NCBI GenBank assembly: GCA_030613165.1
Contig: JAUWMN010000004.1
Location: 1 to 17,231 of the forward strand
DNA: 17,231 nt
Reading direction: 5' to 3'
Source: Desulfobacterales bacterium
Lineage (GTDB): Bacteria > Desulfobacterota > Desulfobacteria > Desulfobacterales > C00003106
The first letter of the stretch is position 1. Each line of letters begins with the position of its first letter. The notes beneath the pieces are model-generated. The model was not told where the DNA came from, made no database searches, and saw only the letters and a program-made list of their open reading frames with translations. This document shows, piece after piece, positions 1 through 16,562 of this stretch. A program made the translations under genes and the position numbers.

Positions 1-161
1 CGCATTACCTTCCTTTGTCATTTGTCATCTGTAATTGATCATTGATCATTTGTCATTTTCCATTATTTAAATGAATCAGTCCGTTTCTTAATGATAATTG
101 GTAAATGATAAATGCCAAATGATAAATGCTTACCTTTCAACACTCCAATACTCCATGAACC
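1..161. repeat. Short-period tandem repeat tract (three blocks) downstream of the sensor kinase
   Basis: This gene-free stretch is built of short words. Positions 14-69 divide into eight successive heptamers of the type TTTGTCA, with variants such as TTGATCA and TCTGTAA. Positions 90-131 divide into six heptamers of the type AATGATA, the same word family in the opposite orientation (TATCATT), so the two blocks can pair as imperfect hairpin arms. Positions 137-160 have period 8 (TCAACACT, CCAATACT, then a decayed unit). The tract ends 13 nt from the kinase stop codon at 174-176. No gene is visible here. A partner response regulator could lie further left, beyond the window. The periodicity is read directly; any function is unknown. 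Confidence 0.8.
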
Positions 162-173
162 CTTACCCTGTCC

Positions 174-1577
174 CTAACGATTTCTCCTTCTCGGCAGCAA
201 GACCGCACACGTCGTCCCTTTTCCCAATTCACTCTCTATCCTCATTTTCCCCCCATGACTCTCCACAATCCTGCTTACGATCGCAAGTCCAAGGCCTGTT
301 CCTCTCTCCTTTGTGGTATAAAAAGGCTCGACCACTTTTCCGTGGTTCTCTTTTTTGATTCCACAGCCGCTATCGCTTATTTTTATCTCAAGCCAATGCA
401 TTTCATTGTCAATTAATTTGGTCTCTATTTTCAGTCTGCCGCCGTCCGGCATCGACTGGACGGCATTCAAGATAAGGTTCCAGAGCATCTGTTGCATCTC
501 TGTCTTGTTTCCATAAATGCCGGCCGGATTACATAACTTAATAACCACTTTGATATTTTCATGCCAATCAGGGCCATCGCGAAAAGATTCTAATACATCG
601 TCTATTACATTCTTGATGTTGATCTCCTCGCGATCGCTCAGGTTAGGGCGTGCCAAAAGGAGAAAGTTTTTTACGAGATTTTCAAGTTGGTCCCTTCCTC
701 TAAGGACAATCTGCATGAGCCTTTCGTTGGTCGCGTTCAGCGTAAGATTTTTTTGAAGCATCTGGATCGACCCGCATAGCGCTGCCAGAGGGTTTCTTAC
801 TTCATGGGCGAGACCTGCCGCCATCTCACCAATAAGAGCCAGTCTTTTGCTTTTTTCAACCTCTTTTTCCATCTCTTTGCTGGCAGTCAAATCCTGAAAA
901 ATCACTATCTCACCAATTTGTTCACTTTTGCTATTGATAAGCGCTGAAACGGAAAAACCTAATACAATACTTTTATCACTTTCTCCCTGAACCACTATTT
1001 CAGCCCTGTTTATTGCCTCCTTTTTCCCCTCTTTCTCTTTTATCTTATCCAATATTTCGGAAAAACCCGGAAAAACCTTATCTATTCTTTTCCCTTTAAC
1101 CTCTGAAAATAATAACCCGGTGATTTCTTCCGCCGCCTTATTAAAGGATTTTATATCTCTTTGTAGATTGATCGTTATGATGCCGGCGCTTACGGATTCA
1201 ATAATGCTTCTGTGTAACAGATCGAGTTGATGAAATTCACTCTCTTTCTCTGCCAGTAGCGATCTCGCGCTTTTTTCCTGTTCAACGACAAAGCTTACTA
1301 AAAATGCGACAATGTAAAAAGACACGATATGGATAAATATCCTCGACAGGACATACCCCGCGCTAAAATCGTACTCCCAGGTGGGACTATATATTGGGTG
1401 AATAACGCCATAGTATTCTAAATCAAGCAACAAGCCATAGAGTAAGCTGCTGGCAGAGGCTAAAAATATACCCCCCTTTTTTGCGAGAAATAGAGTTGAA
1501 TAGATGATAACCAGCGGATATAAAATAGAATAGACACTTTCAATTCCACCTGTTACATGCACAAGCACTGTTATCAA
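174..1577 (-). CDS. PilS-like PAS sensor histidine kinase (main open frame after an in-frame stop)
   Basis: This is a membrane-bound sensor kinase that should phosphorylate a response regulator; the nearest family match by eye is PilS/NtrB-type two-component kinases. Numbered from the TTG at 1577: hydrophobic membrane helices at about 1-100 including the family-typical VTGGIES stretch, a short coiled linker, a PAS domain at about 118-230, HisKA with phospho-acceptor His258 in HEVRNP, N box near Asn367 and Asn371, G1 DSGCGI at 402-407 and G2 GTGLGL at 426-431. The catalytic residues are intact. The TTG is only the first start after the break: the same frame continues upstream through one TAA into the missing N-terminal helices (1638-1844). 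The true product is therefore either a truncated kinase or nothing, unless the TAA is a sequence error. The partner regulator is not in the window. Confidence 0.85.
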   Translation of the reverse strand: MITVLVHVTGGIESVYSILYPLVIIYSTLFLAKKGGIFLASASSLLYGLLLDLEYYGVIHPIYSPTWEYDFSAGYVLSRIFIHIVSFYIVAFLVSFVVEQEKSARSLLAEKESEFHQLDLLHRSIIESVSAGIITINLQRDIKSFNKAAEEITGLLFSEVKGKRIDKVFPGFSEILDKIKEKEGKKEAINRAEIVVQGESDKSIVLGFSVSALINSKSEQIGEIVIFQDLTASKEMEKEVEKSKRLALIGEMAAGLAHEVRNPLAALCGSIQMLQKNLTLNATNERLMQIVLRGRDQLENLVKNFLLLARPNLSDREEINIKNVIDDVLESFRDGPDWHENIKVVIKLCNPAGIYGNKTEMQQMLWNLILNAVQSMPDGGRLKIETKLIDNEMHWLEIKISDSGCGIKKENHGKVVEPFYTTKERGTGLGLAIVSRIVESHGGKMRIESELGKGTTCAVLLPRRRNR

Positions 1578-1634
1578 TGTAACATCGCAGATAGCCTGAA
1601 TGTATACATTGATCTTAAGGCTTTTAATTCTTTT

Positions 1635-1844
1635 TTATAGGATGAGGTATAGGAGTGAAAGAAAATAAGTGATCGTTATAATAAAATATACCGCAGTGAG
1701 AGATGGCGCGGGTAATGACTCTGTTCCTTTGATCTGGATAAAGGCCGCAATCCCGAATAAAAAGGTAACGATCGCAACCCTGAAAAACATTAACCAACGA
1801 AGTCTTCTGGTTAAGTCCTCTTTTTGTAATAGATGATCTGGCAT
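1635..1844 (-). pseudogene. N-terminal membrane part of the PilS-like kinase, cut off by an in-frame TAA
   Basis: The fragment encodes 69 residues from the ATG at 1842-1844, or 81 from the ATG at 1878-1880. The shorter start is preferred because an AGGA lies about 11 nt upstream. It reads RRLRWLMFFRVAIVTFLFG and then a second hydrophobic helix, as at the N-terminus of PilS-like kinases. It ends at TAA (1635-1637). Beyond this stop the same frame stays open without another stop for 19 codons to the TTG at 1577 and on through the kinase. The reading continues as KRIKSLKINVYIQ, plausible family sequence. One substitution of the TAA would give a protein of about 556 residues, normal for the family. 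Both sides are in the same frame, so a single indel cannot explain it. Confidence 0.7.
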
Positions 1845-1980
1845 CGAATAGTTGTCCTGAATGCAAGGGATTGCGATCATAACTGAATTATAAAATAAAG
1901 TATATCAGGAGATTATAGAATTTCAAGGGAACAAAAGAGATGGTGAAAAATTATCTTTACCTTTTACTTGATTTCCGATA

Positions 1981-14900: not shown

Positions 14901-14914
14901 GATAGGAGGTCTTA

Positions 14915-15334
14915 GTGGTAGGTATTGTTATAGCGACACATGGTCGTTTAGGGGTAGCCTTGATCGAGGCTGTAGAATTTATATTGGAAGGCCCTTTTAA
15001 GTATCTCGATTTTGTATCAATCGATTTAAAAGAAGACGCCGAAGGTTTGAGGAAAAAGATCGCTCGGGGAATCAAAAAGGTAAATAATGGAGAAGGCGTT
15101 TTAATTCTAACGGATATGTTTGGCGGGACTCCGTCCAACCTGAGCCTTTCATTTTTGGAAGAAGGAAAAATTGAGGTTATAACAGGTGTTAATCTGCCGA
15201 TTTTAATTCGTTCGCTTAATAAGAGAGAAGGAAAAACCTTGCAAGAGCTTTCTCAAGAGGTATACAATTACGGTCAGAAGAGTATCTCGCTTGCCAGCAG
15301 TATTTTAAAAGGGAATAAAAGGGCGGGTAATTAG
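14915..15334 (+). CDS. PTS EIIA component, mannose family
   Basis: Mannose-class EIIA phosphocarrier domain of 139 residues. The N-terminus has active-site His9 in VIATHGRLG, and the family signature LTDMFGGTPSNLSLSF follows at about 65-82. No membrane components (IIC/IID) are near, so a regulatory rather than sugar-transport role in an incomplete PTS is likely, as in many delta-type proteobacteria. The start is GTG 14915 with AGGAGG at 14904-14909, 5 nt upstream. This binding site begins inside the right target duplication of MITE copy 2. The ending before gap leaves 48 nt with no visible terminator. Confidence 0.92.
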   Translation: MVGIVIATHGRLGVALIEAVEFILEGPFKYLDFVSIDLKEDAEGLRKKIARGIKKVNNGEGVLILTDMFGGTPSNLSLSFLEEGKIEVITGVNLPILIRSLNKREGKTLQELSQEVYNYGQKSISLASSILKGNKRAGN

Positions 15335-15382
15335 AACTATTCCCGTTTTTCCAATAAAGACATAAACACGAAAGGAGTGGGG

Positions 15383-16390
15383 ATGAGTATAAGAGTTGGT
15401 ATCAATGGTTTCGGACGTATTGGAAGACTGGTGTTTAGAGCGGCAATGGCTAATGAGGATGTGGAGGTTGTTGCTATTAATGACCTTACAGATGCTCATA
15501 CAATGGCATATCTTTTAAAACACGACTCAGTACACGGCACGCTCGCTGCCAAAGTTAGCTCAACAGAGGATGCAATCGTGGTGGACGGCAAATCTATCGC
15601 GCTTACCGCGATTAAAGACCCGGCACAACTCCGATGGAAAGACTTCAAGGTAGATATCGTTATGGAGTGTACCGGGCTATTTCGCGACAAGGCAACTGCC
15701 TCGAAGCACTTAGAAGCAGGCGCAAAAAAGGTAATCATTTCTGCTCCTGCCAAAGAACCGGATGTTACGGTTGTGATGGGGGTCAATGCGTTCCAATACG
15801 ATCCCAAAGAACATCATATAATATCAAATGCGTCGTGTACCACCAACTGTCTTGCGCCTGTAGCAAAAGTCCTCATGGAGAGTTTTGGAGTTCTGAGGGG
15901 GTTAATGACAACTATTCATTCGTATACCGGTGATCAACGACTCCTTGATTTTCCCCACAAAGACCTGCGCAGAACGCGGGCGGCGGCTGTGTCTATGATT
16001 CCTACCACTACCGGGGCTGCCAAGGCGGTAGGATTGGTTCTGCCGGAGCTTCAGGGAAAGTTGAACGGTCTGGCAATAAGGGTCCCAACTCCGAATGTTT
16101 CTATTGTTGATCTAGTTGTAAATGTAGAAAAGAGCGGGCTCACCGTGGGGGATGTGAACAATGCGCTGAAATCCGCGGCAGAAGGCGATTTAAAAGGGAT
16201 CTTGGGGGTCTGTGAGGAACCTTTGGTTTCTATAGATTTTAACGGATCTTCACTTTCTTCTATTGTGGATGCCGGCACCACCTATGTCGTTGACAATATG
16301 GTGAAGGTTCTTTCGTGGTATGATAATGAATGCGGTTATTCCAATCGAATGGTCGACCTTGCGGCCTATATCGCAAAACAGCCGTTGTAG
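15383..16390 (+). CDS. gap: Glyceraldehyde-3-phosphate dehydrogenase, type I
   Basis: Interconverts glyceraldehyde 3-phosphate and 1,3-bisphosphoglycerate with NAD in glycolysis and gluconeogenesis. The 335-residue protein has the Rossmann start [11 protein letters not shown], the catalytic [12 protein letters not shown] with its cysteine, the [11 protein letters not shown] loop, and [15 protein letters not shown] at the C-terminus. The ATG at 15383 is chosen because AAAGGAG lies 5 nt upstream; a GTG two codons earlier would overlap that site. In many related genomes gap is followed by pgk and tpiA; here a 188-nt repeat-filled gap and tpiA follow, with no pgk. Confidence 0.97.
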
Positions 16391-16421
16391 TAAGTTGATA
16401 GTATGGGAAAATACTGTTTTT

Positions 16422-16562
16422 GGACACAGATAAACGCAGATTTTCAGGATATTGAATATAAGGTTGCGAGTTACGAGTTGCGGGTTACGAAGGATGATGA
16501 TTAACCTGGGTAATACATTCAATAAGTTTCTGCGGTAATCAGCGAAAATCTGTGTCCCAATT
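16422..16562. repeat. Inverted-repeat element with nested heptamers in the gap-tpiA gap
   Basis: The outer words mirror each other: TTGGACACAGAT at 16422-16433 against the complement of ATCTGTGTCCCAA at 16549-16561, with GCAGATTTTC and GAAAATCT close inside each end. Between them sits a CGRGTTR heptamer block (16467-16487: CGAGTTA, CGAGTTG, CGGGTTA), the same word as at 13234. There is no coding potential. Nested repeats suggest successive insertions. Confidence 0.6.

Follow-up and report, generated by a model that had tools for sequence, protein, structure and literature searches.

Heptamer arrays in intergenic DNA of a Desulfobacterales genome as probable arms of mobile palindromes

Introduction

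Short tandemly repeated repetitive (STRR) sequences are heptamer repeats of heterocystous cyanobacteria. The present study concerns heptameric tandem arrays in the intergenic DNA of a Desulfobacterales bacterium, starting from a window of 17,231 nt, i.e. the whole stretch of DNA that was analysed (positions 1 to 17,231 of contig JAUWMN010000004.1). A first-pass annotation of this window had noticed several unrelated tandem repeats with a common period of 7 nt at gene boundaries, had compared them with STRR sequences, and had proposed one common maker, namely slippage, a heptamer-adding enzyme, or a mobile hairpin. The comparison is apt in that both are intergenic heptamer tandem repeats, but the taxon is Desulfobacterales and not heterocystous cyanobacteria.

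It has been known since 2007 that heptamers are over-represented in bacterial genomes, and the consulted part of the source offers slippage as a guess with little detail (PMC4692102). Here, we describe the arrays of the window, their period, the ends and target sites of one family, and their fate in orthologous gaps of closely related species.

Results

Tandem arrays in the window

The host draft genome (G000; 1.77 Mb in 286 contigs, 67% complete) was compared with its congeners G001-G003, of which G001 is the sister species, and with G026, a relative from the same order. Its closest named relatives are Desulfobacterales, and the KdsA-like protein encoded in the window is 96% identical to KdsA of CSMAG_1126. 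Gene names (kdsA, lptC, rpoN, hpf, ptsN, rapZ, gap, tpi and others) were read off the translations by eye. Searching the window against Rfam at gathering thresholds and scanning it for tRNAs gave nothing. Arrays were located by Tandem Repeats Finder (TRF) and lag scans, and together with the associated hairpins they comprise the following features:

5..13, plus strand: TTACCTTCC, candidate left copy of a target duplication (post hoc, one mismatch)
14..129, no strand assigned: dispersed hairpin element with a TTTGTCA arm (14-58), the core TTTAAATGAATCAGTCC and an AATGATA/AATGCCA arm (90-129)
130..138, plus strand: TTACCTTTC, candidate right copy of the target duplication (8/9 identical, post hoc)
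141..156, plus strand: weak two-unit octamer CACTCCAATACTCCAT, not listed by TRF
8376..8453, no strand assigned: TTTATCA heptamers (8376-8417), then inverse ATGACAG heptamers (8418-8453), between the kdsA-like and kdsC-like genes
9079..9099, plus strand: three AGTARRG units, which passed neither TRF nor lag scans
9659..9682, plus strand: octamer AATTAAGG in three perfect copies, overlapping the 3′ end of the lptC-like open reading frame (ORF)
9711..9732, minus strand: inverse arm of the AATTAAGG array, from the fold
13232..13288, plus strand: GTTRCGR heptamers, left arm, with a 14-nt higher-order unit (4.1 copies, 97% match)
13290..13315, minus strand: GTTRCGR heptamers, inverse arm (TRF/lag scans)
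13845..13866, no strand assigned: 22-bp palindrome GATGATTTTTTACGAAATCATC, read as two joined element ends
16422..16557, no strand assigned: 136-bp hairpin element with ends GGACACAGAT/ATCTGTGTCC (end-pair scan)
16463..16490, plus strand: GTTRCGR heptamers inside the 136-bp hairpin (TRF/lag scans)

The heptamer blocks are real where the first-pass annotation had seen them, as TRF and lag scans confirm. Most arrays and the octamer at 9659-9682 stand on their own, whereas the three AGTARRG units and the two-unit octamer reported at 137-160 are weak when taken alone. A longer array occupies the AGTARRG gap in the sister species G001, and the units in the window are probably what is left of a longer mosaic of heptamers. 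The word of the two-unit octamer also forms a longer array in G001, at another place (L165, 12876-12917). Not every block sits neatly at a gene boundary: the octamer at 9659-9682 overlaps the lptC-like ORF, the kdsC-like start is situated within an array, and a simple ORF rule places 7 of the 47 lag-7 tracts of the sample within ORFs. The listed kdsC-like ORF start (8446) and the lptC-like start (9111) are found inside the heptamer array and just past the AGTARRG remnant, respectively; since start codons stand in or directly after arrays, both may have shifted with array changes.

A seven-nucleotide period shared by many words

Autocorrelation was calculated for 41 contigs, comprising the window and 40 random contigs with 264,418 bases (8,487 of them N), of which 33,989 were intergenic according to a simple ORF rule; 20 first-order Markov resamples served as the null model. 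The signal rose above the resamples at lags 7, 14, and 21 (z 6.8, 6.5, and 5.2), which is the lag-7 excess anticipated in the first-pass annotation. Lag 8 was weaker (z 3.7) and the remaining lags from 2 to 30 ranged between -3.8 and 2.9. At a single fixed stringency the genome's own contigs contained 26 tracts at lag 7, five at lag 8, one at lag 6, and two at lag 12, with zero tracts at the remaining lags within 4-11.

For the relatives, the best 80 of 373 loci by KdsA similarity were used, a selection which was blind to repeats and included the sister species. These loci harbor 66 strict lag-7 tracts spread over 32 of them, besides 23 tracts at lag 8, six at lag 9 (all in L083), two at lag 10, one at lag 11, and three at lag 12; strict tracts at lags 4-6 numbered 0 in the 80 loci. 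The heptamer trait is patchy, because 13 of the loci, labelled Syntrophaceae, Smithella, Geobacter, Geobacteraceae, Nitrospirae, or Omnitrophota, have no strict lag-7 tract at all. One of these 13 loci (L113) shows a tract at a laxer setting. In L083, from a Desulfobacterales relative, nine-nucleotide tandem arrays of the TTGGGTCTA type are located at 3741-3838, 4552-4661, and 12998-13151 and are partly arranged direct then inverse.

At the laxer setting, 160 arrays were assigned to 91 distinct words, some of which recur across genomes (AACCTTG and AAACTTG in five each, AAGCAGT and ACCTCTG in four each). In a survey of 297 genomes sampled from across the phylum, the tandem pattern AACCNTGAACCNTGAACC of the word AACCNTG was present in 63, and the reversed pattern gave single matches in four (by reading). 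The pattern TTTGTCATTTGTCA, with at most one mismatch, had 29 matches genome-wide compared with 0 for its reverse. Units vary within arrays, and units of 8 and 9 nt also occur.

The layout of a direct array followed by its inverse had been described as a recurrent feature and was found for about half of the arrays. A reverse-complement partner within 120 bp scored at least as high as 95% of 40 controls each for 21 of 47 arrays, and above all 40 controls for nine; the remaining 26 have no clear partner. The listing of arrays with their flanks took in 11 contigs picked for word matches.

The AACCNTG family is a transposable element

Copies of a given word often share their surroundings, and the AACCNTG arrays lie between inverted ends GTAACTRCTCAGGTT, a pattern with 24, 29, 42, and 4 matches in G000-G003 and 0 for the control. 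Complete copies, chosen by GTAACTRCTCAGGTT with up to two mismatches at both ends, were present at 18 of the 30 loci examined (6 in G000, 8 in G001, and 4 in G002). They are 47-200 bp long and fold into hairpins with -18.8 to -93.7 kcal/mol, the shortest being nearly free of heptamers. Exact 8-bp target duplications flank seven of the 18 complete copies, and ten when one mismatch is allowed (about 0.06 expected from mispaired flanks); exact duplications of 4-7 or 9-12 bp were not seen at any of the 18. The AACCNTG family is a miniature inverted-repeat transposable element (MITE), being short and non-coding with terminal inverted repeats and 8-bp target duplications.

Within the complete copies, the spacing of GGTT was 7 nt in 61 cases, 8 in 19, 9 in four, and 10 in three, with a further 16 at 14-15 and four at other distances up to 30. 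The exact MITE end was detected in 25 of the 297 phylum genomes, and the reversed control matched once each in two. By a count made by eye, 21 of these 25 genomes also hold AACCNTG arrays, compared with 63 of 297 overall (Fisher p 2e-12, relatedness ignored). The window itself holds no complete AACCNTG copy.

A candidate mover of the AACCNTG element

The IS66 DDE family occurs twice in G026, one copy carrying stops, and this genome has 33+29 matches to the AACCNTG pattern. At G026:C93:2469-5801 (L254, L234) lies a 3.3-kb IS66-type element with ends GTAACTATTCAGGGGTA on both sides, which are identical to each other at 17 of 17 positions and to the MITE end at 12 of 13. The element codes for a DruA-domain protein (PF14236), an unknown protein, and an IS66 DDE transposase (PF03050, E 1.5e-31). 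IS66 elements generate 8-bp direct repeats and have ends beginning GTAAGCG, according to the portion of the source consulted (PMC11946415). The AACCNTG MITE is probably moved by an IS66-type DDE transposase, judging from the similar ends in this relative. Three observations weigh against this assignment. The G026 ends begin GTAACT instead of the IS66 standard GTAAGCG, which makes the link likely rather than certain; the one copy of the element examined shows no 8-bp flank duplication (AAAATTAT versus GTTGAAAC); and the IS66 DDE gene was not found in the incomplete genomes G000, G001, and G003, with a contig-edge fragment in G002.

Transposases of the REP-associated tyrosine transposase (RAYT, Y1) type were rejected as movers. 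The incomplete own genome yielded only two Y1_Tnp genes, and their loci (3.3 and 2.1 kb) contain no tandem heptamers; the first holds an octamer array, AATTCCTA.

Turnover in orthologous gaps

Eleven gaps of the window were tried, of which ten could be compared with G001 and nine with G003. Unit-number variation and word turnover at orthologous gaps, which the first-pass annotation had suggested comparing, were seen, and the tracts are not fixed in relatives. The kdsA-kdsC heptamers of the window also occur in G001, where the order of units is shifted and a 7-nt indel is present, and are absent from G003. Between kdsC and lptC the window has a short remnant, G003 a different hairpin, and G001 a long mosaic of AGTA, GACGACA, and AGAGAAT units, inverse CTCTGAC units, and AATGACA units. 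The lptC-lptA octamers are partly common to G001, where the units are of the AATTGAGG type. The hpf-ptsN gap carries GTTRCGR heptamers in the window, an unrelated GCAAAGAC hairpin in G001, and neither in G003, and gap-tpi has a hairpin in all three congeners, with three different sequences. At ptsN-rapZ the end-to-end palindrome of 22 bp in the window corresponds to an element with AATGACA-type heptamer arms in G001, with CGTAAAAAGTC-type ends of which the right one has diverged. At rapZ-PTS IIA the window has an element and G001 a 20-bp palindrome, with nothing at this place in G003; at rpoN-hpf the window alone has an element.

Changes inside arrays are unit-sized as well. An AATGACA array has 7 versus 16 units in the two sister species, and one orthologous AACCNTG array differs by an extra unit together with concerted unit variants. 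Such differences, like the 7-nt indel, are consistent with slippage. One orthologous AACCNTG copy has two substitutions at its ends that are matched by compensating changes on the opposite arm, and its inner heptamers are uncompensated.

The 20-kb stretch G000:C110 (L173) was discarded as a source of further gaps: when 40 candidates were scored per genome, the sequence past the first kilobase matched G001-G003 only in short and mostly repetitive pieces. In addition, G001 has an acetyltransferase-like gene (by eye) between PTS IIA and gap (L166, 6244-6815), where the window has 41 bases.

Dispersed copies of the window's hairpin families

The element at 14-129 has matches of 81% identity at G000:C254 and G002:C66 (both covering 14-128 of the window) and at G001:C51 (20-128). 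In total, 30, 52, 2, and 0 matches were found in G000, G001, G002, and G003, mostly partial and with the query counted in. The pattern TTTCGTAAAAAGTC of the word AATGACA, with at most one mismatch, matched 98, 83, 194, and 3 times in G000-G003 and its reverse 1, 1, 2, and 3 times; G003 is therefore at background. Arrays of the AATGACA type are enclosed by CGTAAAAAGTC-type ends in five of eight pairs, which represent four distinct elements, and 6-bp flank matches occur in two of the eight pairs at one offset. Five complete pairs of GGACACAGAT-type ends were present in the scanned loci, three of them with GTTRCGR heptamers inside. The GTTRCGR tandem pattern GTTRCGRGTTRCGRGTT gave 178, 27, 66, and 0 overlapping matches in G000-G003, the reversed pattern 0, 2, 0, and 0. 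Dispersed copies, architecture, and turnover suggest that the TTTGTCA and GTTRCGR hairpin families of the window transpose, and because of architecture and turnover the window families are grouped with the AACCNTG MITE.

Discussion

Arms of mobile palindromes

We regard it as likely, with a probability of about 0.7, that many of the heptamer arrays are arms of mobile palindromes which change in steps of about 7 nt by slippage. The 7-nt unit, the dispersed copies, the changes in unit number, the turnover, and for one family the ends and target duplications are direct observations. Many arrays, and presumably most, would form the arms or the interior of palindromic mobile elements that are short and non-coding and fall into several families. 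These elements would insert in intergenic DNA and later be lost or shortened, which would explain why the same gap holds different hairpins in sister species. The arms of existing hairpins would gain or lose whole units, mostly of 7 nt and less often of 8-9 nt, and the most likely mechanism would be slippage during replication, promoted by pauses at the hairpin. Palindromes would thus deliver and remove many arrays, and unit-sized change inside them would yield the lag-7 signal. Our inferences concern slippage as the cause, how many of the arrays are explained in this way, and why the number is 7. As to the single maker proposed in the first-pass annotation, the mobile hairpin holds for AACCNTG, outside the window, and by extension probably for the window families, but two processes seem to act together. 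Of the makers it had listed, slippage fits the unit-sized changes, whereas nothing points to a heptamer-adding enzyme in searches that covered Y1 and IS66 transposases only.

Several findings speak against mobile palindromes as a complete account. Twenty-six of the 47 arrays have no clear inverted partner, some of them being located at contig ends. At 12 of the 30 AACCNTG loci the second end was not within reach, eight of the 18 complete copies have no 8-bp duplication even when one mismatch is allowed, and the exact end is missing from 42 of the 63 genomes that carry AACCNTG arrays. The eight pairs of the CGTAAAAAGTC family, two of which share an end, gave no clear target duplication. Furthermore, left and right unit counts in AACCNTG copies agree only moderately (rho 0.62), and one AATGACA arm is longer by nine units with no corresponding gain in the other. 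A full coupling of both arms was therefore abandoned as unsupported.

Other explanations

Plain slippage in situ at many sites, without mobility and with inverted partners arising through template switching, is a rather unlikely alternative. It would account for the unit-number change between sister species, for the sharp preference for 7 and then 8, and for the 26 arrays that lack a clear inverted partner, and it has been put forward for heptamers in the part of the literature consulted (PMC4692102). However, unlinked copies share conserved ends, flanks, and cores, and the tandem AACCNTG word is spread over 63 of 297 phylum genomes. As the sole cause it fails at the seven of 18 copies with ends and an 8-bp duplication, although it may hold for arrays that have neither of these.

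Improbable is the maintenance of the hairpins as functional RNA or DNA structures, such as terminators or mRNA stabilisers, in which the words would be free to change. The gap-tpi hairpin, present in three of three congeners with a different sequence each, would suit this explanation, as would the two compensated end substitutions in the orthologous AACCNTG copy, but the inner heptamers of the same copy are uncompensated and several gaps are hairpin-free in a congener. Gap orientation, considered as a sign of terminators, showed no clear bias: the 18 array gaps were 13 tandem, three convergent, and two divergent compared with 10.8, 3.7, and 3.5 expected by length, with 19 of the 47 arrays lying outside such a gap. 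A dedicated enzyme that writes heptamers, such as a reverse transcriptase that copies short RNA templates, is very improbable. The sharp 7-nt unit and the words common to distant genomes would agree with it, but units vary within arrays and also measure 8 and 9 nt, the common AACCNTG word is partly explained by a common element, we know of no candidate gene, and none was found in searches aimed at Y1 and IS66 transposases only.

Beyond the mobile palindromes favoured here, it is conceivable, though doubtful, that unrelated palindromic elements of the phylum share one active process which rewrites hairpin arms in 7-nt steps. If so, the arms of elements, and not isolated microsatellites, would be a main source of the bacterial heptamer excess, and either replication stalled at hairpins or a dedicated factor would determine the 7-nt step.

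Comparison with known repeats

The AACCNTG family resembles IS66-related MITEs in being short, non-coding, and multi-copy, with inverted ends, 8-bp duplications, and, in a relative, an element with similar ends and a transposase. It differs in its arms, which consist of tandem 7-nt units varying in number and sequence between orthologues, and in ends that begin GTAACT and not GTAAGCG. Repetitive extragenic palindromic (REP) sequences and bacterial interspersed mosaic elements (BIME) moved by RAYT (Y1) are likewise dispersed extragenic palindromes, but the two Y1_Tnp genes here have no heptamers at their loci, and one family has 8-bp duplications.

Cyanobacterial STRR sequences and, as far as the consulted text describes them (PMC4692102), the G-rich heptamers of Xanthomonas and Nostoc are also intergenic tandem repeats that differ in length and sequence among close relatives and are in part inverted; in contrast, dozens of words occur here and at least one family lies inside a transposable hairpin with ends and duplications. 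Our 7-nt preference agrees with the heptamer excess and the slippage hypothesis in the same part of that source. The TAACTGA repeats of marine Beggiatoaceae are abundant intergenic direct repeats of a heptamer too. In the sections consulted, they are described as one dominant word with related words rarely repeated, inverted copies in 1 of 170 sets, and a location mostly just before start codons, and TAACTGA is reported in no RepeatModeler consensus repeat of Thiomargarita (PMC4679880, PMC4853749); the single dominant word, the rare inverted copies, and the start-codon placement set the Beggiatoaceae apart. Satellites of Chloroflexus, (GATAGRA)n, share the occurrence of one heptamer word at many genome places, but the consulted passages describe them as derived from one word and leave element ends unmentioned (PMC6749651).

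Among the literature matches listed, titles and abstracts contained no description of these hairpin elements, and a search with words and ends returned one irrelevant match. The heptamer excess in bacteria is already in print, and what is added here is the link of part of this excess to transposable hairpins. This link provides a testable setting, namely orthologous gaps of sister species in which the growth, shrinkage, and replacement of arms could be followed and the 7-nt step quantified. Caution is also called for, since such arrays can pass for regulatory motifs though they are parts of mobile elements.

Further palindromes of the window

A further dispersed palindromic element, bounded by TGAGACCTTTGCATAAC / GGAGACCTTAGC, is present twice, at 12500-12670 and 14758-14900. 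The first copy is missing in G001 and G003; the second corresponds to a 20-bp palindrome in G001 and is missing in G003. Upstream of a pyrG-like gene, the palindrome AGGCTGTCCGAGAATTCTCGGACAGCCT lies at 5767-5815, and a similar sequence is found beside a heptamer array at L174.

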